A stretch of DNA of 64,000 bases, taken from Thiothrix fructosivorans (GTDB lineage Bacteria > Pseudomonadota > Gammaproteobacteria > Thiotrichales > Thiotrichaceae). Position numbers and translations under genes: made by a program. The stretch spans positions 124,001 through 188,000 of the forward strand of contig NZ_JAFMPM010000005.1 in assembly GCF_017349355.1 (NCBI RefSeq), in the 5' to 3' direction. The notes beneath the pieces were generated by a model that saw only the letters and a program-made list of their open reading frames with translations, was not told the DNA's origin and made no database searches. Positions 10,949-24,118 of this stretch are shown one piece after another. Position 1 is the first letter of the stretch, and every line of letters starts with the position of its first letter.

Positions 10949-11663
10949 ACCCACCATTAAGGTACGCACCAAGGATGTGATTGCGATCCACTGGTTCAAC
11001 GCTTTTTTCTGGCTGACGCTGGTATTGACTGGCTTTGGCATTATTTCCGGCGATTTTGTGCGCCTTGCTCCGGCATTCTGGCCGACATTCCTGCAAAATT
11101 TGCTGGGGGGCAATGCCAATTTGGTGTTGCTGCACGGCATCGGTGGCATGGTGTGGGCAGGGGTGATTGGCGTGTACGCGCTGTTGAATTTCAAGCGGGT
11201 GGTGTTGCCGTTTCTGAAAAATGTGCTGGTGTTAACGCCTAAGGCAGCGATAGCGGATATGAGTTCGATGGTGATCACGCTGGCGCATTTATTTGGCTTG
11301 CTGAAACACAAAAGCGTGCCACCGCAAGGGCGTTACAACGGGGCGCAACGTTTGCTGGGGACGATGATTATTGCGTGTTCGTTGGCGATTGCGGTGACGG
11401 GGATATATTTGTTCCTCAGCCCGATGCTTCTGGATTTTGCCGCATCAGCGGGGGTCTTGGGGGGCGTGTTCCGCTGGGCGTTGGTGATTCATTTGGCAGC
11501 GGTGTTGCTGGTATTGTTGGGCTTGGTGGCGCATATCTATTTCGCGGTGGTGGAAGAGCCGGAATCGCTGGAAACCATGAAGTCGGGCGAGGCGGAAGTT
11601 GCGTTTATCAAGCACCATAATCCGTTGTGGTATGCGGAGTTGGAGCGTGAGGGGAAGGTTTGA
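10935..11663 (+). CDS. Cytochrome b membrane subunit of the molybdoenzyme (FdnI/PhsC-like)
   Basis: This 242-residue protein has four main hydrophobic spans (about residues 17-40, 55-78, 128-150 and 162-186). Histidines sit where b-type heme ligands are expected: IHWFN in the first span, LHGIGG in the second, and IHLAA and HIYFAVVEEPE in the last. The closing block resembles the formate dehydrogenase gamma family. It should take electrons from, or give them to, the quinone pool. A cytochrome b rather than an NrfD-type subunit favours a PhsABC-like over a PsrABC-like enzyme. Its 3' end overlaps the convergent hydrolase gene by 56 bases. Confidence 0.87.
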   Translation: MSSTKPTIKVRTKDVIAIHWFNAFFWLTLVLTGFGIISGDFVRLAPAFWPTFLQNLLGGNANLVLLHGIGGMVWAGVIGVYALLNFKRVVLPFLKNVLVLTPKAAIADMSSMVITLAHLFGLLKHKSVPPQGRYNGAQRLLGTMIIACSLAIAVTGIYLFLSPMLLDFAASAGVLGGVFRWALVIHLAAVLLVLLGLVAHIYFAVVEEPESLETMKSGEAEVAFIKHHNPLWYAELEREGKV

Positions 11664-12546
11664 AGTCAGCTTTTTCCTGTAAAAAAGCCAGTAATGCGGG
11701 CGCGTGTTCCTCGATTTTATCGACGGAGGCGTGACCTGCATCTACCACTTCCAGCAAGCTGAGATGCGGGCGCGGGCAGTGCGCCAAAATCGCGTGTGCA
11801 TCTTTTAGCGGCACAACCGTATCTGCCGTGCCATGCACCAGCAAAATCGGGCAAGTGATGCGGCACACGCTATGCATTGGCGCAATCGCCGCAAAGCGAT
11901 GCCCGATCACCCATTGCACGTAACGGTTGATGACGCGAATCAAAATGTTGGGTAAGTGTACCGTTTGCAGGTAACGGCGCATCACCCATTCAGGGTGAGC
12001 AAATGCTGAAACACTGATCACCGCAGCAATGTCAGTGCGTCGTGACGCTGCCAGCAATACCGCACCCGCGCCGACCGAATGCCCCAGCAACACCAGTTTC
12101 TCGCAAGCCGTCGGATGATTGGCGTGCAACCACGCCAGCGCACTGTCCAAATCCTCGGCAAAACGCGGTAGGGAGGAAAAGCTGTGGGTGTCACTTTGCC
12201 CATGATTGCGGGCATCGAAGAGCAGCACATTCAAGCCTGCCTGTCGAAAGGGCGCGGCGATGGGCAACATCAGTTCCGCATTACTGCCCCAGCCGTGCAA
12301 GATGACCAGCGTTTGTGTGGCATTGCCAGCGGGTAAAAACCAGCCGAATAAGCGTTTGTTGGCAACGCTGGGAATCCACACTTGTTCAAAAGCAAAGCCT
12401 AAATCTTGCGGCGTGCCTTTCTCTACTTGGCGTGGCGCACGAAAACCCCAGTGGATGCCGAGCATGAACAGCGCAATTGCTGCGACAATAATTCCCGCAA
12501 TGATCAGCAATGCCAGTGTCAAAAGTCGTAGCCTGCCCCGATCCAC
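11608..12546 (-). CDS. Alpha/beta hydrolase with N-terminal membrane anchor
   Basis: This 312-residue protein has a strong hydrophobic N-terminal helix (about residues 7-29) followed by a periplasm-facing alpha/beta-hydrolase domain. The nucleophile elbow is GHSVGAG, an oxyanion-side HGWGSN lies upstream, and DTVVPL and DAGHASV near the end supply a plausible Asp and His. This is the layout of the YqkD/FrsA-like and BAAT-like esterases; no substrate is evident. The start is GTG at 12546, or TTG at 12522 overlapping the stop of the beta-barrel gene, so the two are probably translationally coupled. The 3' end overlaps the convergent cytochrome b gene by 56 bases. Confidence 0.8.
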   Translation of the reverse strand: MDRGRLRLLTLALLIIAGIIVAAIALFMLGIHWGFRAPRQVEKGTPQDLGFAFEQVWIPSVANKRLFGWFLPAGNATQTLVILHGWGSNAELMLPIAAPFRQAGLNVLLFDARNHGQSDTHSFSSLPRFAEDLDSALAWLHANHPTACEKLVLLGHSVGAGAVLLAASRRTDIAAVISVSAFAHPEWVMRRYLQTVHLPNILIRVINRYVQWVIGHRFAAIAPMHSVCRITCPILLVHGTADTVVPLKDAHAILAHCPRPHLSLLEVVDAGHASVDKIEEHAPALLAFLQEKADFKPSPHAPTPHTTTDYGA

Positions 12547-13418
12547 GTACTGTCATGCGTAAAATCCGCATCAAACATACCCGGAACACTGGCGCTGCCG
12601 ATGGGGGTGTTAATCGCGGCACTGTCGTAATTCCAGTCGCTGCGGCTATGCCCGATGCTGACGAATGCATTCTTCAGTTGTGGCTGATTCAGCAATTTGG
12701 CGGGTTTGAGCTTGGCTTCAACTTCCAGCGTGCGGTACGTGCCATCCATGTCGATGCCTGAACCCACCCAGCCGTTATCCATTTCACCGGTTTGGTGATT
12801 GAGGGAGGCATTGCCAGCCACTTCCAACCAAGGGGTTGCCTGATAGCTGCCTTGCACCGCGACACCGGCTTTGTAAGTGGTGACTTCGGTATCAAAGGTA
12901 TCCAGCATATCCAAGGCGAGATTGGCGGCGGGCAGGACATTGCGCACTTTTATGAATGGCGTGCTGACACCGGTATTCACGCCAACACCCACATGTCCCC
13001 GCGCAGTTTTCAGCACATCGTAACCCACGCCTACATCAAAGTTTACGCCGTGGATGCGGTAATCGGCGGGGACGGGAATCGCGGTATTGTCCGCAATCAA
13101 ATCCGTGACGCTGCTACCGATCACAGGCAGGTTGCTGGTCATCGACACACTGGCAAGGTCGGTCATCTGGTTCACGGTGTCCGAGTCGAAATAATCGGCG
13201 CGAAATTGGTAATACAGCGGTGAATCGTTGATATTGCGGTGCGGTTCTGCCAGCGTCCAAGTGTCCACTTCCAGTGACGGATCCATGCTGACAAATGGCT
13301 TGGCGGCTGCGCCCATGTCGAAATCGCCGCTGCCGTAGCGCAATTCCAGCGCATGGGCAGGTGCGATGCTGGCGAAGCTTAGGCAGGCGAGGGTTGCTGA
13401 GCGGGTTAATACATCCAT
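12519..13418 (-). CDS. Outer-membrane beta-barrel protein (TIGR04219-like)
   Basis: This 299-residue exported protein begins MDVLTRSATLAC and has a signal peptide ending in AHA. The mature part has alternating polar and hydrophobic strands and many Gly and aromatic positions, and ends in GAGYDF with a terminal Phe, the usual signal for the Bam machinery. The overall pattern (an ELRYG start, paired strands of alternating character, F at the end) resembles the TIGR04219 barrel group. The ATG at 13418 is chosen because AGGA lies 10 bases before it and it starts the signal peptide; an in-frame codon 36 bases upstream would spoil the signal. It overlaps the hydrolase start by 28 bases. Confidence 0.72.
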   Translation of the reverse strand: MDVLTRSATLACLSFASIAPAHALELRYGSGDFDMGAAAKPFVSMDPSLEVDTWTLAEPHRNINDSPLYYQFRADYFDSDTVNQMTDLASVSMTSNLPVIGSSVTDLIADNTAIPVPADYRIHGVNFDVGVGYDVLKTARGHVGVGVNTGVSTPFIKVRNVLPAANLALDMLDTFDTEVTTYKAGVAVQGSYQATPWLEVAGNASLNHQTGEMDNGWVGSGIDMDGTYRTLEVEAKLKPAKLLNQPQLKNAFVSIGHSRSDWNYDSAAINTPIGSASVPGMFDADFTHDSTWIGAGYDF

Positions 13419-13550
13419 GTAAACAAGTCCTGAATTAGTGGTGGTGATGGGCATTTTTCCCAGCAGATTAGTCAGTCATAGCAAAAATGGCATTGAAAAA
13501 TCACAAAGTACGCGGTGGGGGCTGAATCTCTCCGATGTGAAAAAACTCTG

Positions 13551-13579
13551 TTCTTAATTTGTCCAACACATTGTATGAT
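13551..13579 (+). promoter_or_regulatory. Candidate sigma-70 promoter for the conflict island
   Basis: TTCTTA and TATGAT are separated by 17 bases, ending 61 bases before the ATG of the Trypco2 gene. The -10 hexamer is good and the -35 is weak. It is the best promoter-like pair in the 222-base gap ahead of the island. Confidence 0.4.
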
Positions 13580-13640
13580 CATTTGGGGCGTATACGGTAA
13601 ACGTAGGTCTGTTTTATCCATCTGAATTAAGGGGCTTTGC

Positions 13641-13976
13641 ATGAGTGTAGGTAAACGGCAGTTAGTTGACGTAGTAGCAGCGTTGCGCAGTGATATTGAA
13701 GAGGCGATTGCTGAAGGTATCGGTAAAAGCGTCAAGTTTAACCTTGAGGAGATTGAGGTCGAGTTGCACACTCAAATTACTAAAACCGGGGATTTGAAAA
13801 TTAACGGTGGGGTTGAGTTCAAGATTTTGGGTTTCGATGTAGGTAGTGCAGGGGCTGAAGCCAATGGGAGCTACAGCAAGGAAGATACGCATACCATTCG
13901 TTTGAAACTGAAGCCCAAGCGTTGGGATGAAAAATCCCAGAGTTACAAGGGTGTCGACATGTCTGACCTCGATTGA
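13641..13976 (+). CDS. Trypco2-family protein (trypsin-co-occurring domain)
   Basis: This 111-residue protein starts with an amphipathic helix (LVDVVAALRSDIEEAIAEG). It continues with beta-strand-rich sequence (FNLEEIEVELHTQI, GGVEFKILGFDVG) and ends in a short charged tail with HTIRLKLKP. This is the profile of the Trypco2 domain, a small domain found beside trypsin-like proteases in predicted bacterial conflict systems. Its usual partner, a trypsin-like protease, begins 13 bases downstream. It may hold the protease inactive or link it to a sensor; that role is inferred from association. Confidence 0.78.
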   Translation: MSVGKRQLVDVVAALRSDIEEAIAEGIGKSVKFNLEEIEVELHTQITKTGDLKINGGVEFKILGFDVGSAGAEANGSYSKEDTHTIRLKLKPKRWDEKSQSYKGVDMSDLD

Positions 13977-13989
13977 GGGAGCATGAGCC

Positions 13990-15618
13990 ATGCTGAAGTC
14001 TGAGTTAGTGGCACTGGTTGAAGTACCCACAACACTCAAGGGAGACGATGGGCAGTTTAAAAAAGCGGTTGGCACTGCTTATCCGATACGGGATGGGCTG
14101 GTGCTGACAGCGCGGCATGTGCTGTACCACGATAAGATCAACCCTGAACAAAAGCGCATCTTCAGTTGGCGGCTTTCAGATGAAGATGCGCCTTACCATA
14201 CGGCAGAAGTGACGCAGGCTGACATCGTGTTTGAAGATGAAAACTTCGATGTGGCGGTGGTCAGGTGTGATACTTCCAAATTGACGCTGCCGTTATCGGT
14301 GTTGAGCGATGTTTTTCCGAAAGCGAACGAGCCTTGGGAAGCAGTAGGATACCCCAGAGCGGGAGTAGAAGCAGGACAACGCAAGAAAATTCCAGCGGGT
14401 GGTACTTACTTCACGCCCGATCCAGACCATTACATCCAGCAATTAGAATCCAAAGGTGATGCAGAGGAAGCTAAGCTGTGGAAAGGTATGTCTGGTGCTC
14501 CTCTATTTCATTGTCCAACGGGTAAGTTATTGGGCATTCTGATTCGCACACCCAATCAATATGACAAGGTAGTTGAGTATGCTGATAGACGTAGCGAAAC
14601 AACGGTTGAAGCAGTGTTTGAGAACCGTTTGGTGGCAGCATCCATTCCCTATCTGCTGCGTGTTGGTAAGTGTGAAAAGTTTCGGCAGGCTGTCTGGCAG
14701 TCACAAGCAAGCCAGTTATTGCCAACAGTCCAAACCGGCGATGAATTCAAAACGTACCTGACCAAAAAAATTACGCGGGAACTGAAAAAACGTGATCAGG
14801 ATACCCCGCGTTTGCGTGAACAATTGTCCGAAGCATTGGATATGGAGGATGAGGGCAGTGAACCTAAGACGCTTGCCAAGGCACTGGTTGAACGGAAGAT
14901 AAGTAAAGCAATTGATGTGCTTGCCACCGCTACTGCTGATTGCGTTGTGCCGGGCGGTATGCGTTACAAGGAAACCGATTCTATTGATGAGGTCAAGGCA
15001 ACTGCGCAACAGGTTCTGGGTTGGTTGGTGCTGGGCAGTTTTGATGAAAAACAGTTAGATGCTGTTTTGCCGCATTGTATCCAACATGATTCGCTGTTCT
15101 TCACCCTCGCCGTGAAATCCCTGACAGGCGTGGAAATTGTCATGGCACGGCGTTTTAATCGCCCATCACAATTTGAGCATCAAACTGGCCCGGAACAGAA
15201 AAGCCGCCATTTGATTGCACCACCCACAGGTTGTTTGAAATGGGACGAAAAGGAAAGTGCTAGACTCATTTTCATTGAAGTCTGGAACAAGGTTTTTCCC
15301 AGTCGCAAGTTGGATAATCGGCATTATGACCCAAAACCGGAAGACTGGGAGCGATTGAACTCGGAACTGGCAGCACGTCGTGATGATTCCCAGCCGGAAC
15401 ATTACTACATACCGTTCAAAGCCAGTGCCTATGATCAGGTTGAAATGACTGCCTACGTGGCTGACGTTTATCGGCATTTTCTCAGTAAACTTAACCAGAT
15501 GACCGTTATCCAGTACGGTGAAGACGGCTGCGACAGCAACCTGTTTTTTATCAAGGAAGCCGATTTGCAGGCAGCCATCAACAAGTTTTACCGCCGTATC
15601 CACGGTGAAAAAGGATAG
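13990..15618 (+). CDS. Trypsin-like serine protease with large uncharacterised C-terminal region
   Basis: This is a 542-residue protein without a signal peptide, so it is cytosolic. Residues ~1-215 form a chymotrypsin-fold protease: His43 in LTARHVLY, Asp87 in NFDVAVVRCD and Ser168 in KGMSGAPLF make a full catalytic triad. Residues ~240-540 are of unknown type, helical and charged at first. They could be an effector-associated or sensor module that couples to the ATPase. GAGGGAG about 8 bases before the ATG supports this start. The gene is co-directional with Trypco2 and the MoxR ATPase, with gaps of 13 and 5 bases, so all three belong to one operon. Confidence 0.85.
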   Translation: MLKSELVALVEVPTTLKGDDGQFKKAVGTAYPIRDGLVLTARHVLYHDKINPEQKRIFSWRLSDEDAPYHTAEVTQADIVFEDENFDVAVVRCDTSKLTLPLSVLSDVFPKANEPWEAVGYPRAGVEAGQRKKIPAGGTYFTPDPDHYIQQLESKGDAEEAKLWKGMSGAPLFHCPTGKLLGILIRTPNQYDKVVEYADRRSETTVEAVFENRLVAASIPYLLRVGKCEKFRQAVWQSQASQLLPTVQTGDEFKTYLTKKITRELKKRDQDTPRLREQLSEALDMEDEGSEPKTLAKALVERKISKAIDVLATATADCVVPGGMRYKETDSIDEVKATAQQVLGWLVLGSFDEKQLDAVLPHCIQHDSLFFTLAVKSLTGVEIVMARRFNRPSQFEHQTGPEQKSRHLIAPPTGCLKWDEKESARLIFIEVWNKVFPSRKLDNRHYDPKPEDWERLNSELAARRDDSQPEHYYIPFKASAYDQVEMTAYVADVYRHFLSKLNQMTVIQYGEDGCDSNLFFIKEADLQAAINKFYRRIHGEKG

Positions 15619-15623
15619 ACCTG

Positions 15624-16673
15624 ATGATCCTCCCCATCACCCCGCATAAAAAATACACCTTGCCCGCCTACGGCACATGGAAGCCCAGCGTCCATGTCTT
15701 CGACGAGCGCACCACGAATGCGCTGACGGCGGCATGGCTTTCGGAACGCCCATTACTGGTACGCGGCGACCCCGGTACAGGCAAAAGCCAGTTAGCGCGT
15801 GCCGCCGCCGTCGCGTTGGGCTGGCAACTGGTGTCGGAAGTGGTCAGCGCACACACGGAAATTCAGGATTTGTGGTATCGCTTTGATGCGGTCAGCCGTT
15901 TGGGGCAGGCGCAATTACTGAGTGCGATTGGCAGCAGGTTTACCCCGGAAACGTTGAAAACCGAGCTTGACCCGCGCAAGTTCCTGAGTCCGGGCGCGTT
16001 GTGGTGGGCGTATGACTGGCAAACGGCACAGGACTATTACATCGCCAGTGATTTCAGGTTGTACCACCCCAATCCTGCCAATGAGGAAGACAAAACCTTA
16101 CCCAAGGGCGTTGTCTTGCTGATTGATGAAATCGACAAGGCGGATGCCGATTTGCCCAATAGCCTGCTGGAAACGTTGGATAATGCGCGTTTCCGCATTC
16201 CGTGGGTGAATGAAAGCATTGGCTATCGTGCTGATGATGACAAGGCTATCCGACCGCTGGTCGTCATCACCACCAATGAAGACCGCCAATTGCCCGCCGC
16301 GTTTGTGCGCCGTTGTCTGGTGCTGAACCTTGAGTTACCAGAGAAAGAATCCGCTTTGGTGGATCATCTGGTGAAGCGTGGCGGTGAACATTTCAGTGAC
16401 GCAAAAAATCAGCCTTTGTTCAGCCGCAAAGTGATGGAAACCGCTGCCAAACAATTGCATCAGGACAGGCTTGAAGCGGCAACCCTTGGTTTCAAACCGC
16501 CCGGTCAGGCAGAGTTTCTGGATATATTGCGGGTGTTGGCACGGCTGGAACTGGATGAAGCAAAGCAACTGAAAAAGCTGGAACAGATTCAGGATTTTGC
16601 CCTGAAAAAACACCCCGGCATGAAGCAGCGCATGGATACCGACGTTGGTGATGCAGGCGAGGATGCCGCGTGA
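15624..16673 (+). CDS. MoxR-type AAA+ ATPase
   Basis: This 349-residue AAA+ ATPase has Walker A GDPGTGKS at residues 48-55 and Walker B LLIDE at 166-170. A sensor-1 stretch VVITTNEDRQLP and the arginine pair in FVRRCL follow. An insertion containing tryptophan-rich sequence lies between the Walker motifs. Such ATPases usually act as chaperones on partners with vWA-like domains; the next gene, overlapping by 4 bases, encodes a candidate partner. In this island it likely remodels or gates the SAV_2336/FGE protein or the protease. That role is inference from gene order. Confidence 0.88.
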   Translation: MILPITPHKKYTLPAYGTWKPSVHVFDERTTNALTAAWLSERPLLVRGDPGTGKSQLARAAAVALGWQLVSEVVSAHTEIQDLWYRFDAVSRLGQAQLLSAIGSRFTPETLKTELDPRKFLSPGALWWAYDWQTAQDYYIASDFRLYHPNPANEEDKTLPKGVVLLIDEIDKADADLPNSLLETLDNARFRIPWVNESIGYRADDDKAIRPLVVITTNEDRQLPAAFVRRCLVLNLELPEKESALVDHLVKRGGEHFSDAKNQPLFSRKVMETAAKQLHQDRLEAATLGFKPPGQAEFLDILRVLARLELDEAKQLKKLEQIQDFALKKHPGMKQRMDTDVGDAGEDAA

Positions 16674-19540
16674 GTTCACGGGTAAGCCGCGCCGACCTGT
16701 TGCTGTTTCTGGAGCAGCAGGATAGCGGGGAATTGGATAACATTCTGGATTGCTTTGGCTACCAGCGTGTGCCAGTGCAACATCCGTTGAACCTTGGCGG
16801 TGATGATCAAGAGGTGTTCCCCACACCGGAACGGCGCAAGCCATTGCTTGATCGTGATAATGGTTTAGCACCCTCGGCACTGCCCCCCGAAGTGTTTTAT
16901 GTTGTGCAAGGGCAGGAAGCCAGCAGCCTGTTACCCGCCCCCAAACAACCCGGTCAGCCGGATGTTCCCGACTGGGTAAATAGTATCCAGCACCAAGCAC
17001 TGGATTTGGAGGCAGGCAAACGCCGTTACGCCAGCCAACCGCCACCCCATCAGCCCTTGGTGGCTTGGTCAACTTTGTGGCCTTTATTGCGTAAGTTACT
17101 CAGCCAACAACAGATCCACAAACGCCCGGATATTCCCAAGCTGGTGAAACAGGTTGCCAAAGCCGAGCAATTGCGCCGCATCCCCCAACAGCAGCGGCTG
17201 AACTGGACGGCTAAAGTCGTGATCTTGGTAGACCGTCCACCCCGGCTGGATGGTTTGAACCGGGATTACGTGATGCTGCAAGCACAATTGGGTAAGCAGC
17301 GCGGTGAGGTTGGGGTGGAAAGCTGGTTTGTACTGGATTTGCCGACCCGCAGCATGTTGTTGGGGGATGAGCGTAAAACTTGGCATCCGCCCACGCCAGA
17401 AACGCCCATCTTGATCCTTAGCGATTTGGGGATTTATGAGCATAGCGGGCAAATCACCCGTCAATGGTTGCGCTTTGGGCAGAGTCTGCGGCGGGCGGGT
17501 TGTCAGGCATTTGCGCTAGTCCCTGCACCCGTGCGCTATTTATCCGAGGAACTGACCCAGTGTTTTCAGTGCATCAGTTGGGATCGTTACAGCAAGCTGA
17601 TACCCGTTAGCCCGACTGCCACTACGCGAGAAACCGTGCAACAGCGAATGGCGGAAGATCAGCATCACGCTGGTGAGCTGCTGGCGCTGGCGATTGCTGC
17701 CACGGAAATTGAACCGGCATTCCTGCGTAGCCTGCGCTATCAGTTCACTCTCGGCAAGCCGTGGGATATTGGGCATGAATTACTGATTTGGAATCATGCC
17801 GCTGTTGAATATGGCAGTAACGCGGTGGTGTTGGATGCAGAGGCACAACAGCATTACCGTGATCACTTGGCAACGCTGCTGACCCGGCAACCGGAACTGG
17901 CAGTGCCCTTGTATTGGCACGTCCGGCAGCAATTGGCGCATACCTTCACGCTGGATTACGCTGATGCGCTGTGTTTTCTGGGGGCGTTGGCGGGTATCAA
18001 CGCTGATGAGCGATTGGAAGCAGCCGAGCGTTACCTGAAGCAATACATCCTCGCCACCCACCAGCAGGCACAGCATCGGGGGCTGTTGTTCAATGGGCAG
18101 TTGTTGCTGGAGCGGCAGGGAAACCGCAGCCGTCGGCACAACGATTACTTTTCATCGCTGTGGGCAATCACCCAGCAGCGGCTTGGCAACAATGCGCCGC
18201 GCCCTGATTGGCTTGATCACGGGGCAGCCAATGCGTTTCTGACGCACCCCATTGACCTTAAGCGGGTGCAACTCATCCAGTATGGCGAGCGTTTTTATCT
18301 GGGGACACCCAAAGCCCTGCAAAGCCTGCAAGTACCCGGTTTCGCTTTCCAGCCTTATGTCTTGGCGGAAGTCGAGACTGATCAGGATTTGGTGATTGCT
18401 GAGTATGAAGGTGAAACAACCGATCATTACCTAAGCAATGACGGCTATCTGCAATGGGCGGTCACGGGCAAATCACGGATTTTGCACATTGGCGGGCAGC
18501 GGTTGGTGGTTGAAGCACTGACCCGACCTGAGTGGGCGGGGGGCTTCAGTTGTAGCGCAAATGGCTGGGAGAAACCGGCGATTCAGCCTACTGGCGAAGA
18601 CGAATATGGCGTGTATTTTGATTTAGTGCTACCCCAACCGTTCCCTGAGCGAAGCCGAAGGGAACACCTCACTCAACGCTTCCGCTACATCCCGCCACAA
18701 ACCTTCTTGATGGGTTCGCCATTCAGTGAACCGGGGAGTTATTTATATGAAACCCAACACAAAGTCACTCTCACCCTAGGCTACTGGCTGGCTGACACTA
18801 CCGTGACTCAAGCCTTCTGGGCAGCCGTCATGGGTGTGAACCCTAGCCATTTCCAAGGCTCACAACGCCCGGTCGAAAAAATCAGTTGGGACGACACCCA
18901 AGTCTTTCTCCAAAAACTGCAACAACATTGGCAGTTGCTCGACGTGCGTTTGCCGCTGGAAGCCGAATGGGAATGCGCTTGCCGCGCAGGGACAACCAGC
19001 GCGTTTTCATTCGGTGGCAAAGATGATTTGAACACCGAGAAGGTCAATTATTTTGGTAAGTGGAATGAACAGGATAATGAAAGAAAAGGTGAAACCAAAC
19101 CCGTAAAAAGCTATTCACCCAATGGGTGGGGACTATACGAAATGCACGGGAACATCTGGGAATGGTGTCAGGATGAATGGCAGGGGGATCTTGGTTCGGA
19201 GTCTGTCACTCTTAGCCCCTTTCCATCAGGAATAGGGATTGAGGTGAGGGAACCCCCGAAGGGGCAGCAGCGGCAGAGAGTGTTGCGTGGCGGTTCGTGG
19301 GGCTACGCGGGCAAGCTCTGCCGATCTGCCTACCGTCGCAGATTCATGCCCGACGACCGTCGCTTCAACCTGGGTTTCCGGCTTGCCCTAGGTCATCCGA
19401 GCTCAGGTCAGGAGCAGGCTGGCAGCAAGCACGGGCAGGCGCGTTACGGAGTAGCGCCAGACCGTGATGGCAGCCAGACTGCGGTGGGGCGGGCAGGGCA
19501 GTGGCTAAAATCGGCATTCAACAAATTGACAGGTAAGTAA
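16670..19540 (+). CDS. SAV_2336-like/vWA-like N-terminus fused to an FGE-sulfatase domain carrying a DGR-type variable region
   Basis: This is a 956-residue protein. Residues ~80-540 resemble the SAV_2336-related architecture: a linker, then a vWA-like start (AKVVILVDRPPRLDG near residue 182) and long helices. Residues ~667-907 form a formylglycine-generating-enzyme-type (FGE/SUMF1) fold: RYIPPQTFLMGSP, PVEKISWDD, RLPLEAEWECACRAG, GLYEMHGNIWEWCQDEW and RVLRGGSW. Residues 870-907 are the segment usually diversified by DGRs. A further ~49 low-complexity residues follow. The GTG start overlaps the MoxR stop (GTGA). Two palindromic repeats are read through in frame. The FGE fold here probably serves as a ligand-binding scaffold rather than an enzyme. 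Confidence 0.82.
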   Translation: MSSRVSRADLLLFLEQQDSGELDNILDCFGYQRVPVQHPLNLGGDDQEVFPTPERRKPLLDRDNGLAPSALPPEVFYVVQGQEASSLLPAPKQPGQPDVPDWVNSIQHQALDLEAGKRRYASQPPPHQPLVAWSTLWPLLRKLLSQQQIHKRPDIPKLVKQVAKAEQLRRIPQQQRLNWTAKVVILVDRPPRLDGLNRDYVMLQAQLGKQRGEVGVESWFVLDLPTRSMLLGDERKTWHPPTPETPILILSDLGIYEHSGQITRQWLRFGQSLRRAGCQAFALVPAPVRYLSEELTQCFQCISWDRYSKLIPVSPTATTRETVQQRMAEDQHHAGELLALAIAATEIEPAFLRSLRYQFTLGKPWDIGHELLIWNHAAVEYGSNAVVLDAEAQQHYRDHLATLLTRQPELAVPLYWHVRQQLAHTFTLDYADALCFLGALAGINADERLEAAERYLKQYILATHQQAQHRGLLFNGQLLLERQGNRSRRHNDYFSSLWAITQQRLGNNAPRPDWLDHGAANAFLTHPIDLKRVQLIQYGERFYLGTPKALQSLQVPGFAFQPYVLAEVETDQDLVIAEYEGETTDHYLSNDGYLQWAVTGKSRILHIGGQRLVVEALTRPEWAGGFSCSANGWEKPAIQPTGEDEYGVYFDLVLPQPFPERSRREHLTQRFRYIPPQTFLMGSPFSEPGSYLYETQHKVTLTLGYWLADTTVTQAFWAAVMGVNPSHFQGSQRPVEKISWDDTQVFLQKLQQHWQLLDVRLPLEAEWECACRAGTTSAFSFGGKDDLNTEKVNYFGKWNEQDNERKGETKPVKSYSPNGWGLYEMHGNIWEWCQDEWQGDLGSESVTLSPFPSGIGIEVREPPKGQQRQRVLRGGSWGYAGKLCRSAYRRRFMPDDRRFNLGFRLALGHPSSGQEQAGSKHGQARYGVAPDRDGSQTAVGRAGQWLKSAFNKLTGK
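18640..18665 (+). repeat. In-frame palindromic repeat in the SAV_2336/FGE gene
   Basis: The arms GTTCCCT and AGGGAAC flank a 12-base centre GAGCGAAGCCGA. This is the kind of dispersed small palindrome seen in many copies in some bacterial genomes. It is translated as part of PFPERSRREHL and sits at the junction between the N-terminal module and the FGE domain. Confidence 0.6.
19211..19270 (+). repeat. 60-bp GC-rich repeat, copy 1, inside the FGE domain
   Basis: This 60-base segment starts CTTAGCCCCT, contains GGTGAGGGAACCCCCG and ends GCAGCAG. It lies between the WEWCQDEW block and the variable region. A second copy of equal length sits at the matching place in the next FGE gene (20353-20412). 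It is translated in frame and lengthens a loop of the fold. Confidence 0.65.
19277..19390 (+). other. DGR-type variable region 1
   Basis: These 38 codons read from RVLRGGSW to GFRLAL. Compared with the segment at 20419-20532, the framework codons agree (GGSW, CRSAY, PDDR, LAL), while 13 exposed positions differ in amino acid. Nine of these differ only in the first two bases of a codon that ends in C in both copies. That is what adenine-directed mutagenesis of AAC template codons produces. No template repeat or reverse transcriptase was found in the window. Confidence 0.72.
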
Positions 19541-19644
19541 TGAGATACAAGTTCTATCACATCCCCAAGATGTCTCCCGACCAAGCCGAAGCGGAGTTAA
19601 ACCACTTTTGCACCGAACATCATGTACTTCACTTTATCTACTGA
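19540..19644 (+). pseudogene. Stub of a small DGR/FGE-associated accessory protein
   Basis: This is a 34-codon frame whose ATG overlaps the stop of the preceding gene (TAATG). It begins MRYKFYHIP and continues AEAELNHFC. I recall this start from the longer HRDC-containing accessory proteins encoded beside FGE-type DGR target genes. Here the frame stops shortly after HHVLHFIY, and nothing that looks like the rest of such a protein follows. It is therefore probably a truncated remnant. The family match is from memory of the N-terminal pattern and needs a profile search. Confidence 0.5.
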
Positions 19645-19653
19645 TTGACACTC

Positions 19654-20535
19654 ATGGACTACCGCAACCACCTCTCACCACCCCAATTCCCCACCACATG
19701 GGCATCCGCTTGGGGCGAAGACTGCCACGGCTTGTGGATGACGCTCACCTATCAGGGCGCAAGCCTCACTTTCCGCTGGATTATCCCCGGCACATTCATG
19801 ATGGGTTCGCCAGATGGTTCAAAAAAAGACGAACCAGCAGAAAAAGGGCGGGCAAATTGGGAAGATCAGCACAAAGTCACTTTGGAAGAAGGTTTCTGGT
19901 TGGCAGATATACCTGTTACACAGGCATTCTGGCAGGCAGTGAACGGCGACAACCCCAGCTATTTCAAAGACGATGATTCACTGCCAGTAGAAAACGTCAG
20001 TTGGGATGACGTACAGGCATTCATCCAAAAACTTAACCAACTTCACCCTGATTTAACCGTGCGCCTGCCGTGGGAAGCAGAATGGGAATACGCCTGCCGT
20101 GCCGGAACGACTACCGCCTTCCATTTCGGCGATGAAATTGATGCCAGTAAAGCCAATTACCGGGGCGTATGGGAGGTGAAGGACATCAAGAGTTATGAAA
20201 ATGATAAGGAATGGGGAAAAGATGCCTTAAAAAAAACCACTCCCGTCAAAAGCTATCTTCCAAACTCGTGGGGCTTGTACGACATGCACGGCAACGTTTG
20301 GGAATGGTGTCAGGATGAATGGCAAGAACACCTCGGTTCGGAGTCAGTTACTCTTAGCCCCTCTACCTTAGGGAGAGGGGGTGGGGTGAGGGAACCCCCG
20401 GAGGGGGAGCAGGGGCGGCGCGTGGTGCGCGGCGGCTCGTGGAGCAGCGTAGGCAGGTACTGCCGATCCGCCTACCGCTACAGGCACGCGCCCGACGACC
20501 GTTTCGACATCGATGGTTGCCGCCTTGCCCTATGA
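19654..20535 (+). CDS. FGE-sulfatase (SUMF1-fold) protein with DGR-type variable C-terminus
   Basis: This is a stand-alone formylglycine-generating-enzyme-fold protein of 293 residues. It shows FRWIIPGTFMMGSP near the start, then EGFWLADIPVTQAFWQAV, PVENVSWDDVQAF, RLPWEAEWEYACRAG and GLYDMHGNVWEWCQDEW. It ends in RVVRGGSW followed by the variable segment and a stop right after RLAL. It is a paralogue of the C-terminal domain of the 956-residue protein. The ATG at 19654 is chosen over a TTG nine bases upstream; neither has a clear ribosome-binding site. Its role is probably ligand recognition, as for other DGR-diversified FGE scaffolds; catalytic activity is unlikely. Confidence 0.85.
   Translation: MDYRNHLSPPQFPTTWASAWGEDCHGLWMTLTYQGASLTFRWIIPGTFMMGSPDGSKKDEPAEKGRANWEDQHKVTLEEGFWLADIPVTQAFWQAVNGDNPSYFKDDDSLPVENVSWDDVQAFIQKLNQLHPDLTVRLPWEAEWEYACRAGTTTAFHFGDEIDASKANYRGVWEVKDIKSYENDKEWGKDALKKTTPVKSYLPNSWGLYDMHGNVWEWCQDEWQEHLGSESVTLSPSTLGRGGGVREPPEGEQGRRVVRGGSWSSVGRYCRSAYRYRHAPDDRFDIDGCRLAL
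20353..20412 (+). repeat. 60-bp GC-rich repeat, copy 2, inside the second FGE gene
   Basis: This copy has the same length and location in the fold as the repeat at 19211-19270 and shares most of its bases, including GGTGAGGGAACCCCCG. Here the hairpin is clearer: CCCCTCT (20358-20364) pairs with AGAGGGG (20374-20380), and CCCCC (20395-20399) pairs with GGGGG (20403-20407). It is translated in frame. Confidence 0.65.
20419..20532 (+). other. DGR-type variable region 2
   Basis: These 38 codons match variable region 1 and end immediately before the TGA stop. Variable codons include AGC, TAC, CAC, TTC, GAC, ATC and TGC, all one or two adenine substitutions away from AAC. The last nine bases (CTTGCCCTA) are identical in both copies and the similarity continues for about 20 bases beyond. 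Such a boundary would suit an initiation-of-mutagenic-homology site, although that element cannot be confirmed without the template. Confidence 0.72.
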
Positions 20536-20644
20536 CATCTGAGTTCAAGCGTGGCGAAGCAGCCAAACAGGTAGAGCAGGCGGGCAGCCAGCCTGCGGCG
20601 CTTCTGCTACACTAACCCCAACCAACAGCCACAGACACTCCCAC

Positions 20645-22249
20645 ATGCCCAAACATTTCAACACCACCGGCCCGGTCATTCCCAGTGAGCATTACTGCAT
20701 CGACCCCATGCAGCGTATGGATTGGACTGAAATTCACTCACTGATTGCCGACAAAAAGTTCTTTGTCCTGCACGCCCCGCGCCAAACCGGCAAAACCAGC
20801 ACCTTGCTGGCAATGATGGATACCCTCAACCAGTCCGGCGAATACACCGCGCTCTACATCAATGTGGAAGCCGCCCAAGCTGCGCGTAATGATGTGGCAC
20901 TGGGGATGAAGACGATTCTCGGCACACTCGCCGATGGCGCGTATTACCGCCTGCAAGACGACCGCCTGAATCAATGGCTGGAAGAAATATGGCAAAAACA
21001 CGGCGCAACCGGGGCGCTCAAAGCCATCCTCAACCGCTGGGCGCAAGCATCCGCCTTGCCGATTGTGCTCATGATCGACGAAGTGGATGCCCTCGTCGGT
21101 GACACGCTGATTTCGCTGTTACGCCAATTGCGCGAAGGCTACATCGGTCGCCCCGGCGTACCGTTTGTGCAAAGCGTCATCCTCTGTGGCGTTCGGGATG
21201 TGCGTGATTACCGTATCCATACCTCGCACCATGAAATCATTACCGGCGGCAGTGCTTTCAACGTCAAGGCTAAATCCTTGGTAATGGGCAGCTTTAGCCG
21301 TGCCGAAGTCGAAACCTTGTACGCACAACATACCGCCGAAACCGGGCAAGTGTTTTCCCCAGAAATTTTCCCGGAACTTTGGGAAGATACCCACGGGCAG
21401 CCTTGGCTGGTCAATGCCTTGGGGCATGAATTGATTTGGGAAGACAAAACCGCCCGTGACCGCAGCACGCCCATTACACTGGAACGTTACCGTGTTGCTC
21501 GCGAACGCCTGATTCAATCTCGTGCCACGCATCTCGAACAACTGGCTGACAAACTCAAGGAAGCACGGGTACGTTCGGTCATCGAGCCAATCCTCAAAGG
21601 CGCAGACAGTGACCAGTCGCTTAACCCAGACGCAGTGGAATACGTGCGTGATTTGGGCTTGATCGAACGCGCCAGTAACGGTGCTATCCGCATCAGCAAC
21701 CGCATTTATCAGGAAGTGATTCCGCGTGAATTGTCGTGGGGCAGCCAAATGGCGATTACCCAAAGCCAAGCGTGGTATCTGACCCCGCAGCGGCGGGTCG
21801 ATATGCCCAAGTTGTTAAATGCATTCCAGCAATTTTTCCGCGAACATGCCGAAAGCTGGCTGGAACGCTTTGACTACAAGGAAGCCGGGCCACAATTGCT
21901 GCTGCAAGCCTTTTTGCAGCGGATTATCAACGGTGGTGGGCGCATCAACCGCGAATACGGCTTAGGGCGCAAACGTACCGACCTGTACATTGAATGGCCT
22001 GTAGATGAGCAGCAAGGTTTCCACGGTGAAGTCCAGCGTATTGTGTTGGAACTCAAGCTCTTGCATAAAGGTTTAGCCGCTACCCTTACTGAAGGTCTGG
22101 AGCAAACCGCCGGTTATGCCGATCAGTGCGGTGCGCAGGAAATGTACCTGATCATTTTCGACCGTAACCCCAACACCCCGTGGGATGCCAAAATCTGGCA
22201 ACGCCAAGAAAGCTGGCAAGAACGGGATATTGGTGTGTGGGGGATGTGA
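20645..22249 (+). CDS. P-loop ATPase with C-terminal PD-(D/E)XK nuclease-like domain
   Basis: This is a 534-residue protein. Walker A lies in HAPRQTGKTST near residues 40-48 and Walker B in IVLMIDEVDAL. Helical STAND/AAA-like sequence follows. Near the C-terminus, RTDLYI and, after a spacer, VLELKLL supply the Asp and the Glu-x-Lys of a PD-(D/E)XK fold. The arrangement is like the AAA-ATPase/DUF1703-type protein at 41037-42575, but the sequences are only distantly similar. It is co-directional with the conflict island, 109 bases after the second FGE gene. It might be part of the system as a nuclease effector or might be independent. Confidence 0.78.
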   Translation: MPKHFNTTGPVIPSEHYCIDPMQRMDWTEIHSLIADKKFFVLHAPRQTGKTSTLLAMMDTLNQSGEYTALYINVEAAQAARNDVALGMKTILGTLADGAYYRLQDDRLNQWLEEIWQKHGATGALKAILNRWAQASALPIVLMIDEVDALVGDTLISLLRQLREGYIGRPGVPFVQSVILCGVRDVRDYRIHTSHHEIITGGSAFNVKAKSLVMGSFSRAEVETLYAQHTAETGQVFSPEIFPELWEDTHGQPWLVNALGHELIWEDKTARDRSTPITLERYRVARERLIQSRATHLEQLADKLKEARVRSVIEPILKGADSDQSLNPDAVEYVRDLGLIERASNGAIRISNRIYQEVIPRELSWGSQMAITQSQAWYLTPQRRVDMPKLLNAFQQFFREHAESWLERFDYKEAGPQLLLQAFLQRIINGGGRINREYGLGRKRTDLYIEWPVDEQQGFHGEVQRIVLELKLLHKGLAATLTEGLEQTAGYADQCGAQEMYLIIFDRNPNTPWDAKIWQRQESWQERDIGVWGM

Positions 22250-22250
22250 A

Positions 22251-22643
22251 TTAGTGGTGGTGATGCTCGTGATCGTGGTGATCATGATCGTGTTCATGCG
22301 GCGCTGCCGGTGGCAGTGTATTCGACAATAACGCTTTCACCGCCGTCACCGGATCCGTTTCCGCCGTTGCCCGCACCATCACACCCCGGCTGCCCATTTT
22401 ACGCATGAAACCTTCGCCGCAGCCGCTGGTGATTAAATAGTCCAGTTCAAACAACGGGTGTTCGCCCTGACCGTTCCATTCGTGCAACGCCATTTCCTTG
22501 GGCAAATCCAGCCGCTCAAGTTCCTGTATTTCGTTGCCATCATACGTTTCGTACACCATAAAACGCCGCCCCTTACCGGCATGTCCGGTAATGGTACGGA
22601 AATTCTGGCTGCTGACACCAATTTTCAAAGAACCAACTTTCAT
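22251..22643 (-). CDS. NifX/NifB-type (Nitro_FeMo-Co) domain protein with histidine-rich tail
   Basis: This 130-residue protein has the dinitrogenase iron-molybdenum cofactor-biosynthesis fold, with GVSSQNFRTITGHAGKGRRF at the start and DYLITSGCGEGF in the middle. The last 15 residues are almost only His, Asp and Glu, which suggests binding of a transition metal. A ribosome-binding site GAGGAG lies 7 bases before the ATG. It follows the Rieske gene by 17 bases on the same strand, so it may help in handling the Fe-S or another metal centre. No nif genes are visible. Confidence 0.82.
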   Translation of the reverse strand: MKVGSLKIGVSSQNFRTITGHAGKGRRFMVYETYDGNEIQELERLDLPKEMALHEWNGQGEHPLFELDYLITSGCGEGFMRKMGSRGVMVRATAETDPVTAVKALLSNTLPPAAPHEHDHDHHDHEHHHH

Positions 22644-22660
22644 GGGGGAACTCCTCGTTA

Positions 22661-23257
22661 TTAAGCAACGTTACCGTCTTCGCCGATCAGGATGGTGTTG
22701 TCATCCTTAAAGTAATACGGCGGTACGACCAGATTAGTGGCAGCCGGTACGTTTTTGTATACCCGTCCAGCCAAGTCAAAGCGCGAACCGTGGCAGGGGC
22801 AATACCAGCCGCCTTTCCAATCCGCGCCCAAGTCTTCCGGCGCAACTTCCGGGCGGTAAGTCGGCGAGCAGCCTAAATGCGTACAAATCCCGATCAATAC
22901 CAAATAGTGAGGGTTTCGTGAACGGTGGGCGTTTTGGGCATACGCAGGTTGCTGGGATAGGATTTCTGAGGCTGGGTCACGTAAGTTTGTATCATTTTTT
23001 GGCAAGTCAGTCAGCATTGCCTCGGTACGATTCACGATCCATACGGGTTTTCCCCGCCAAATAACCCGTAATAATTGCCCCGCTTCCACTTTGCTAATAT
23101 TCACCTCGACGGGAGCGCCAGCGGCTAATGCTCGCGCACTGGGTTGCCAAGACGATAGGAAGGGGGCGGCGATAGCTGCCGTACCTGACGCGCCAACCAC
23201 GGACGTGGCAGCAATCAATAGGCGACGTCGCCCGTGGTTAATCTCTGTGTGTGCCAT
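22661..23257 (-). CDS. Rieske [2Fe-2S] protein of cytochrome bc1 type, without petB/petC
   Basis: This 198-residue protein resembles ubiquinol-cytochrome c reductase iron-sulfur subunits. It has a Tat-like start GRRRLLIAATS, one membrane helix, and the cluster-binding boxes CTHLGC and CPCHGSRF. The linker between helix and head and the final GEDGNVA are standard. The start at 23257 is chosen because the twin-arginine motif then falls near residue 10; a longer frame exists upstream but does not look like protein of this family. In most proteobacteria petA is followed by petB and petC. Here a NifX-like gene follows, so this is an orphan copy or a Rieske for another complex. Confidence 0.85.
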   Translation of the reverse strand: MAHTEINHGRRRLLIAATSVVGASGTAAIAAPFLSSWQPSARALAAGAPVEVNISKVEAGQLLRVIWRGKPVWIVNRTEAMLTDLPKNDTNLRDPASEILSQQPAYAQNAHRSRNPHYLVLIGICTHLGCSPTYRPEVAPEDLGADWKGGWYCPCHGSRFDLAGRVYKNVPAATNLVVPPYYFKDDNTILIGEDGNVA

Positions 23258-23470
23258 GTGCAAGTTGTTCCTGATGAATGCTAATGACCGAGCAACGTAC
23301 TGGGTTAACAGGGTAAGTGCATTGAGAAACTGCAAAGCCCTATTGCTTATTCCGTTCATCAAGGATGAAGCTGATGTATTGGATAATTTTTGATTTTTTT
23401 TAATGCAGGCATACGAAGCTTTAGGCAGTTTGCCCGCTGTGTTTTAGGTTCTAGTGTAAAAGGTACGATG

Positions 23471-24118
23471 ATGAACAAATCTTTACTCATGATTGGCTTG
23501 GCGGTATTGCTGAGTGCGTGCGGCGAAAAAACCGAAAAGGTAGCGGAAGCTCCAGCAGAAGCACCGAAGGCAGCAGAACAAGCCACTGCCCCTGCTCAAC
23601 AAGCAGCAGCACTTGCGGTGGATAAAGCGGTACTGGCAGAAGAAGCCAAAGCTGCCGTACAAGCCCTAGGCAGTACACTCAAAGGCGAATTGGAAGCCGC
23701 CATGAAAGCGGGTGGCCCTGTTGAGGCGATGGGTATTTGCCACACCAAAGCCCCCGAAATTGCCAAAGCCGTTTCTACCGAAAAAGGTTTGCAAGTTAGC
23801 CGCGTCAGTCTGAAAAATCGTAACCCTGACATGGGTGTTGCCAACGAATGGCAAACCAAGGTTCTGAATGACTTTGAAACCAAAAAAGCGGCTGGTGAAG
23901 ATCCTGCGACGCTGGTTCATGCGGAAGTAGTTGGTAGCGAGTTTCGTTTCATGAAAGCCATTCCGACCGCAGCGGTTTGCTTAAACTGCCACGGCACGGA
24001 TCTTAGTCCAGCCGTGACCGCGAAATTGTCCGAGCTATACCCGAACGATAAAGCGGTGGGATACAAAGAAGGCGACTTGCGCGGTGCATTTGTTGTTGTG
24101 AAAAATCTCGTGCAGTAA
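23471..24118 (+). CDS. Lipoprotein with DUF3365/Tll0287-like c-type heme domain
   Basis: This 215-residue protein begins MNKSLLMIG and has a lipobox LSAC, so it is predicted to be a lipoprotein. An Ala/Glu-rich linker (to about residue 60) precedes a Tll0287-like domain. That domain contains MGICHTKAPEIA and the heme-attachment motif CLNCH. These domains bind a c-type heme with sensory or redox roles in the periplasm. The ATG at 23471 is preferred to 23468 because AAGG is 7 bases upstream. It is divergent from the Rieske gene and 73 bases ahead of an FNR-like regulator. Confidence 0.8.
   Translation: MNKSLLMIGLAVLLSACGEKTEKVAEAPAEAPKAAEQATAPAQQAAALAVDKAVLAEEAKAAVQALGSTLKGELEAAMKAGGPVEAMGICHTKAPEIAKAVSTEKGLQVSRVSLKNRNPDMGVANEWQTKVLNDFETKKAAGEDPATLVHAEVVGSEFRFMKAIPTAAVCLNCHGTDLSPAVTAKLSELYPNDKAVGYKEGDLRGAFVVVKNLVQ

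Follow-up and report, generated by a model that had tools for sequence, protein, structure and literature searches.

The stretch of DNA analysed here (hereafter the window) comprises 64,000 nucleotides of Thiothrix fructosivorans (NCBI RefSeq assembly GCF_017349355.1, contig NZ_JAFMPM010000005.1, positions 124,001 to 188,000 of the forward strand). It carries a cassette of six genes, all on the + strand at window 13641-22249, which includes two target proteins with FGE domains that end in variable repeats (VRs). The differences between these repeats were examined for the imprint of a diversity-generating retroelement (DGR), which rewrites a VR at positions where its template repeat (TR) has adenine (A-sites). 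The reverse transcriptase (RT), the TR and the accessory HRDC gene are together termed the engine. The features of the locus are as follows.

13641..13976, + strand: Trypco2 (trypsin-co-occurring domain 2), 111 aa; Pfam PF19631, E 6e-18
13990..15618, + strand: trypsin-like peptidase, candidate effector, 542 aa; Pfam PF13365, E 1.5e-9
15624..16673, + strand: MoxR-like AAA ATPase, 349 aa; Pfam AAA_5, E 1.4e-14 (bpMoxR, E 1.4e-5, below its cut-off)
16670..19540, + strand: target protein 1 (FGE1), 956 aa; C-terminal FGE domain at aa 675-906, PF03781, E 8.3e-38
19286..19390, + strand: variable repeat VR1; differences concentrated at A-sites, downstream hairpin absent
19540..19644, + strand: HRDC stub, 34-aa open frame; residues 1-29 match the HRDC protein of a second cassette in the genome, L010
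19654..20535, + strand: target protein 2 (FGE2), 293 aa, FGE domain only; PF03781, E 5.1e-42
20428..20532, + strand: variable repeat VR2; A-site pattern, degraded hairpin downstream (about 20551-20563, three mismatches)
20645..22249, + strand: AAA/STAND-like ATPase, 534 aa; Pfam AAA_22 / AAA_35

PF03781 spans the VR part of both target proteins, placing the VRs in the C-terminal C-type-lectin-like (CLec)/FGE domain, and the 38-codon blocks that were compared (window 19277-19390 and 20419-20532) form the C-terminal ends of the two domains. A first-pass annotation of the sequence had described two blocks differing at 13 amino acids, nine of which fall in codons with a terminal C in both copies, within a fixed framework. 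Two differing blocks are indeed present, with 14 differences rather than 13, of which nine lie in codons of the type described; RGGSW, CRSAYR, PDDR and LAL are unchanged between the blocks. Without recourse to a template, nine of the 13 amino-acid-changing codons among the 31 VR codons end in C in both copies, compared with nine of 56 upstream (Fisher p = 3.4e-4; upstream set of 152 aligned codons, window 18740-19199), and the first two codon positions take 21 of the 27 differences in the VR, compared with 77 of 158 upstream (p = 0.004). When mapped on the TR of L010, VR1 and VR2 differ at 18 of 27 A-sites and 11 of 78 other sites (p = 6.1e-7); on each TR of two other species the figures are 16/25 and 13/80 (p = 1.1e-5). 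VR2 and the VR of the orthologous cassette of a sister genome, G008, differ at 15/27 A-sites and 4/78 others (p = 7e-8). The p values are only indicative, because individual sites are interdependent and the same sequences enter more than one test. Both the map (18/27 against 11/78) and the codon counts (9/13 against 9/56) show the differences to be concentrated at template-adenine codon sites, as in a former DGR target. Provided that VR2 and the G008 VR are fair counterparts, diversification would have continued beyond the split from the G008 species, or would already have been polymorphic at it. VR1 and VR2 are not a clean, recent DGR pair, since their framework contains silent differences (CGT/CGC, GGT/GGC, TCT/TCC and CGG/CGC) in addition to CTG/GAT.

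A palindromic repeat-like stretch, CTCTTAGCCCC...GGTGAGGGAACCCCC, is present inside both FGE frames just 5' of the VRs, at about window 19206-19250 and 20352-20392. The copy on the VR2 side has nine further matching places in the genome. The repeat-like insert common to both window FGE copies is missing from the G008 orthologue.

A 13-base hairpin, GCGGCGGAGCCGC, was found with up to one mismatch 3' of 18 of 28 VRs drawn from the pattern table and of none of the four TRs examined; these counts omit five L052 VRs, two L063 pattern hits and VRs found outside the table, and an N is present in one L060 VR. According to the portion of PMC3240598 consulted, efficient retrohoming in BPP-1 depends on a hairpin of this kind 3' of the VR. 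After VR1 the hairpin is missing: the best match has five mismatches, a score that 419 of 500 shuffles also attained. The copy after VR2 is degraded (three mismatches, attained by 32 of 500). A structural score assigned 4.5-5 out of 5 to 19 of 27 VRs (the same set without L009), 2.0 to VR1 and 3.0 to VR2. Neither window VR is therefore followed by the hairpin expected of a competent DGR target. In G008 the hairpin is intact after the VR, and window VR1 has a gap of ~20 bases at that place in the alignment. At the VR 3' end, where an IMH element would be expected, the junction CTAGGTC, common to many of the genus VRs listed, is kept in VR1 and not in VR2.

No RT match was obtained at E ≤ 1e-3 within window 11001-24000, and the locus does not constitute a complete DGR. 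A search of the same genome (G000) with PF00078 yielded 12 matches, and two RTs with a DGR motif (IGxLTSQ and YxDD, occurring as IGSLTSQ and YMDD) are located on the same contig at C5:258979 and C5:411627. RTs with IGxLTSQ were counted as belonging to DGRs on the basis of [IVL]GxxxSQ, which we take to be the DGR signature; DGR-motif RTs also occur in sister genomes. L010 is a paralogous cassette around the second RT, 267 kb from that of the window, and comprises in order Trypco2-like, trypsin-like and MoxR-like genes, a 964-aa FGE target, HRDC, RT, TR and a short FGE target. The window shares this gene order, HRDC-RT-TR occupying the place between the long and short FGE genes of L010. The first VR of L010 differs from its own TR at 8/27 A-sites and 0/78 others; its second VR (about 10494) is shifted out of the TR's frame by a one-base length difference. 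At another locus, L009, a TR is paired with a NACHT-FGE target. A TIR-FGE protein encoded on a different contig of the genome (L062, G000:C6, 7609-8784, - strand) has a VR identical to the L010 TR at 77 of 78 non-A sites and changed at 17 of 27 A-sites, and is likely a remote (trans) target of the L010 DGR. A TIR-PEGA-FGE protein (L061, G000:C5, 6662-8488, + strand) carries an orphan VR, the framework of which, by reading, resembles a TR-like sequence of L075 in another species.

Three sequences were counted as TRs by reading, being AAC-rich and outside FGE frames, and were scored against the window VRs. The nearest mismatched VR1 at 14/78 and VR2 at 16/78 or 16/80 non-A sites, too many for a template. 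The TR of L010 was itself tried and rejected, with mismatches at 14/78 (VR1) and 16/78 (VR2) non-A sites, and the L009 TR, read from the sequences and unscored, has a framework different from that of the window VRs. VRs of unequal length or of a different type (L010 10494, L051 7664, L059 8099, L052, L061 and L063) were excluded from the scoring, and the ungapped score of L056 6951 was spoilt by one extra codon. Neither the genome itself nor the others among the 16 of the genus yielded a cognate TR. A pattern search of 63 family genomes, which presumes the inferred framework, recovered only VR2 and two TRs already known (G009 and G011); 17 of the 63 fall outside ≥90% completeness and ≤5% contamination. 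An RT of at least 60% identity was present in none of 773 matching plasmid records, of 72,556, and a search of genome contigs gave 37 loci, none in the genus by title, although near records may be missing. The first-pass annotation had proposed that a DGR RT and a template be sought in the genome, and held that it would be contradicted if neither occurred in this or sister genomes. RTs and TR-VR pairs are present, so that contradiction did not arise as worded; what is missing is a template fitting VR1 or VR2.

The two FGE genes of the window are separated by only about 113 bases, between which lies a 34-codon open frame. Its first 29 residues align with the beginning of the HRDC protein of L010 (48%; E 7.6e-6; window 19540-19626; by tblastn on fetched loci), and 0 of 300 shuffles equalled this match. 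The short HRDC stub is the sole trace of an engine at the window locus, where no trace of an RT or TR was found. When the first 450 bases of the spacer were tested in eight of 11 engine-less cassettes (L049, L052 and L057 were left out), six including the window had an HRDC start for which 0 of 300 shuffles were as good, and L054 had a weaker one (4/300). The stub of L050, L058 and L059 leads into a palindromic repeat, CCCTCACCCC...CCTCTCCC, beyond which lies a small open frame that in L059, where it was scanned, encodes a DUF559 protein; DUF559 has two matches in the window's own genome. Bounded by CCCTCACCCC/CCTCTCCC, the small frame occupies the expected place of HRDC-RT-TR in these three cassettes, and is possibly a mobile unit involved in loss of the engine.

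A protein search of the 16 genus genomes identified 14 cassettes in 11 genomes. The surroundings of all 14 were inspected: full-length HRDC matches accompany an RT in three (L010, L060 and L056), and an RT match is missing near the other 11. The RT match of L056 (G011) is split into two parts and lacks 97 query residues; TR and HRDC are both present there. Both VRs of G005 are identical to the G000 TR at 78/78 non-A sites and changed at 17 and 14 of 27 A-sites, yet the sole PF00078 match in that genome bears the non-DGR motif QGAPTSP. The same is seen in G002 and G014 as well as G005, each with a single PF00078 match (QGAPTSP) and VRs at 0-4 mismatches, over 78-80 non-A sites, from TRs of sister species. 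Of the two VRs of L058 (7817 and 6264, - strand), one differs from the G011 TR at 4/80 non-A sites and the other from the G000 TR at 3/78, and two such frameworks in one cassette suggest template exchange or recombination. In a tree of the MoxR proteins, L010, which has an RT, groups with L050, L058 and L059, which do not (100/100), and L056 groups with L057 (98/99).

The first-pass annotation assigned the repeats to a conflict system, which the gene content bears out, Trypco2, trypsin-like, MoxR-like AAA and FGE genes occurring together. By Pfam, the MoxR-like ATPase, the protease and the Trypco adaptor adjoin the FGE target, which fits a MoxR-like ATPase conflict cassette. Target protein 1 has a long N-terminal extension without a Pfam match, and the AAA/STAND-like ATPase also adjoins the orthologous cassette in G008. 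No Pfam match to vWA or VMAP was found at E ≤ 0.01 among the six window proteins, divergent forms being possible. PADLOC matched the peptidase (LmuA, E 2.3e-13, HamA, RT-Protease and Avs1b) and the ATPase only weakly and in part, and neither FGE target at all; every NCBIfam match of the window proteins was below cut-off. The neighbouring genes are under purifying selection, with ratios of non-synonymous to synonymous substitution (dN/dS) relative to G008 of 0.069 for MoxR, 0.11 for the N-terminal extension of target 1, 0.045 for the STAND-like ATPase and 0.27 for FGE1 outside the VR. The ratio for VR2 against the G008 VR was 3.3, calculated from 35 codons with only two silent changes, and that between FGE1 and FGE2 outside the VR was saturated (nan).

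These data make it probable that the window sensors were once diversified by a DGR and that the engine has since been lost from the locus. The two FGE (C-type-lectin-like) targets would formerly have been rewritten at adenine-template codons, with the HRDC accessory gene, RT and TR situated between them. Deletion of the HRDC-RT-TR block would have left the start of the HRDC gene alone, and the stub would mark that deletion. Since then, silent framework changes would have accumulated in VR1 and VR2, and the hairpin 3' of both would have been lost. With engine and hairpin gone, further diversification would be precluded and the binding tips left fixed; the window VRs are probably no longer a DGR target. 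The claim that a retroelement diversified these regions is thus supported for the past, by the A-site and codon tests, the DGR-motif RTs and TR-VR pairs of the genome and the HRDC-RT-TR block of L010 at the place of the window stub, and is not supported for the present. With its open frames intact and its neighbours under selection, the cassette is most likely still functional, its tips being fixed. By analogy with the model given in the part of Doré 2024 (PMC10907252) consulted, the variable FGE face would sense an invader, the MoxR ATPase would relay the signal and the trypsin-like peptidase would act; its candidate role as effector is drawn from that text together with the part of Kaur 2020 (PMC7159879) consulted. 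A sensor in this state would probably no longer be renewable.

Several observations weigh against this interpretation. The A-map of the enrichment tests was taken from TRs of sister cassettes, and all three TRs scored have 14-18 mismatches to the window VRs at 78-80 non-A sites. L010 is a distant paralogue, with 24% identity over the N-terminal extension of the target, and the nearest cassettes to that of the window, L049 and L051, are engine-less, no engine-bearing cassette being known in its own group; the case for a former window engine therefore turns on the stub of 29 aa together with the pattern of the VRs. Apart from the window, tblastn showed a stub only in L055 and, at E 0.57, in L058, and the L051 spacer has none (41/300 shuffles as good). 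The orthologous L049 has a single, apparently mosaic FGE gene and no HRDC match; its VR and VR2 may therefore not be strictly orthologous. Seven scored VRs other than one with an N lack the hairpin, three from L051 and two from L054, and for some perfect hairpin scores 6 to 18 of 1000 shuffles did equally well. The dN/dS of VR1 was 0.78 against the G008 VR and 0.94 against VR2, neither exceeding 1, and such ratios also average over time before loss of the engine. On the MoxR tree engine state requires three changes, as few as with shuffled labels (mean 2.9; 500/500), and long branches meet, so that repeated independent loss of the engine is indicated locally rather than over the whole tree.

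That the VRs were never DGR targets, and that positive selection instead drove apart the surface loops of two ordinary FGE paralogues, is very improbable. FGE loops are surface-exposed, none of the scored TRs fits VR1 or VR2 cleanly, and a dN/dS of 0.94 between them requires no special process. However, ordinary selection does not predict a fixed third-base C at 9/13 changed codons against 9/56 upstream, and leaves unpredicted the enrichment on the A-map, the HRDC stub and the existence of loci of the same gene order with an engine in that very place. Continued diversification in trans, from L010, L009 or an unsampled replicon, is an unlikely explanation of a different kind. The L062 VR, with its 77/78 non-A identities and 17/27 altered A-sites relative to the L010 TR, makes such action plausible, and Doré 2024 (PMC10907252), in the part consulted, infers trans diversification for the targets of DGR 4 and 5. 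Set against this are the poor fit of the L010 TR (14/78 non-A mismatches to VR1 and 16/78 to VR2), the finding of no other fitting TR in the genome, the absent or degraded hairpin and the silent drift of framework between VR1 and VR2.

The blocks might instead have arrived by recombination or gene conversion from DGR-active cassettes without being diversified at the window locus. The L058 VRs, near to two different TRs (4/80 from G011 and 3/78 from G000), the repeat-like insert of both window FGE copies that G008 lacks, and the G005 VRs, which agree with the G000 TR at 78/78 non-A sites in a genome whose only PF00078 match has no DGR motif, would all accord with such borrowing. The HRDC stub, on the other hand, suggests that an engine once lay between the window FGE genes; diversification in place is the simpler explanation because of it, and we regard borrowing as unlikely. 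On balance doubtful is an extension of engine loss at the window to the whole genus, in which loss would be a recurrent, tolerated and perhaps favoured end state: the retroelement would first supply binding variants, after which HRDC-RT-TR would be excised and working sensors remain as a memory-like fixed repertoire. If true, a repertoire of sensors of fixed specificity would escape surveys that start from the RT. The large metagenome survey of Roux 2021 (PMC8144416) states, in the part consulted, that its own approach misses VRs that do not adjoin an RT, and RT-first surveys overlook sensors whose engine is gone. Should frozen sensors work, they would make it possible to ask experimentally whether bacterial sensors shaped by hypermutation become fixed after attaining a useful specificity.

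Clade-5A DGR loci with a MoxR-like ATPase, such as DGR 8 of Thiohalocapsa PB-PSB1, are described in the part of Doré 2024 (PMC10907252) consulted, as are degenerate DGR loci of the same organism. As in the clade-5A loci, the window has a MoxR-like ATPase directly 5' of a long target without a predicted N-terminal domain and a second, short CLec-only target, and Trypco and trypsin-like genes are often adjacent; unlike them, its HRDC is a stub, RT and TR are absent and the VRs fit no TR found. The likeness of the window to clade 5A is one of gene layout, and not of position in an RT tree. The degenerate loci of PB-PSB1 similarly retain targets with key machinery missing or pseudogenised and repeat elements degrading components, but several of their targets, unlike those of the window, fit an intact TR elsewhere at all non-A sites. 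Target genes in isolates without RT and TR are reported for Treponema denticola (PMC4891356, in part), where an HRDC accessory gene likewise adjoins the RT in complete loci; the loci described there include no MoxR-type conflict cassette. The MoxR-vWA ternary conflict systems of Kaur 2020 (PMC7159879, in part) share the MoxR component, the Trypco-trypsin pairing and an FGE-type domain linked to DGRs, whereas the window has no listed vWA or VMAP match (E ≤ 0.01, six proteins). No claim is made that engine-less FGE cassettes are absent from the literature. The window cassette is a further example of the layout and degeneration already described in Doré 2024, so far as that text was consulted, and the frequency of engine loss in the genus is the least expected part of the results.

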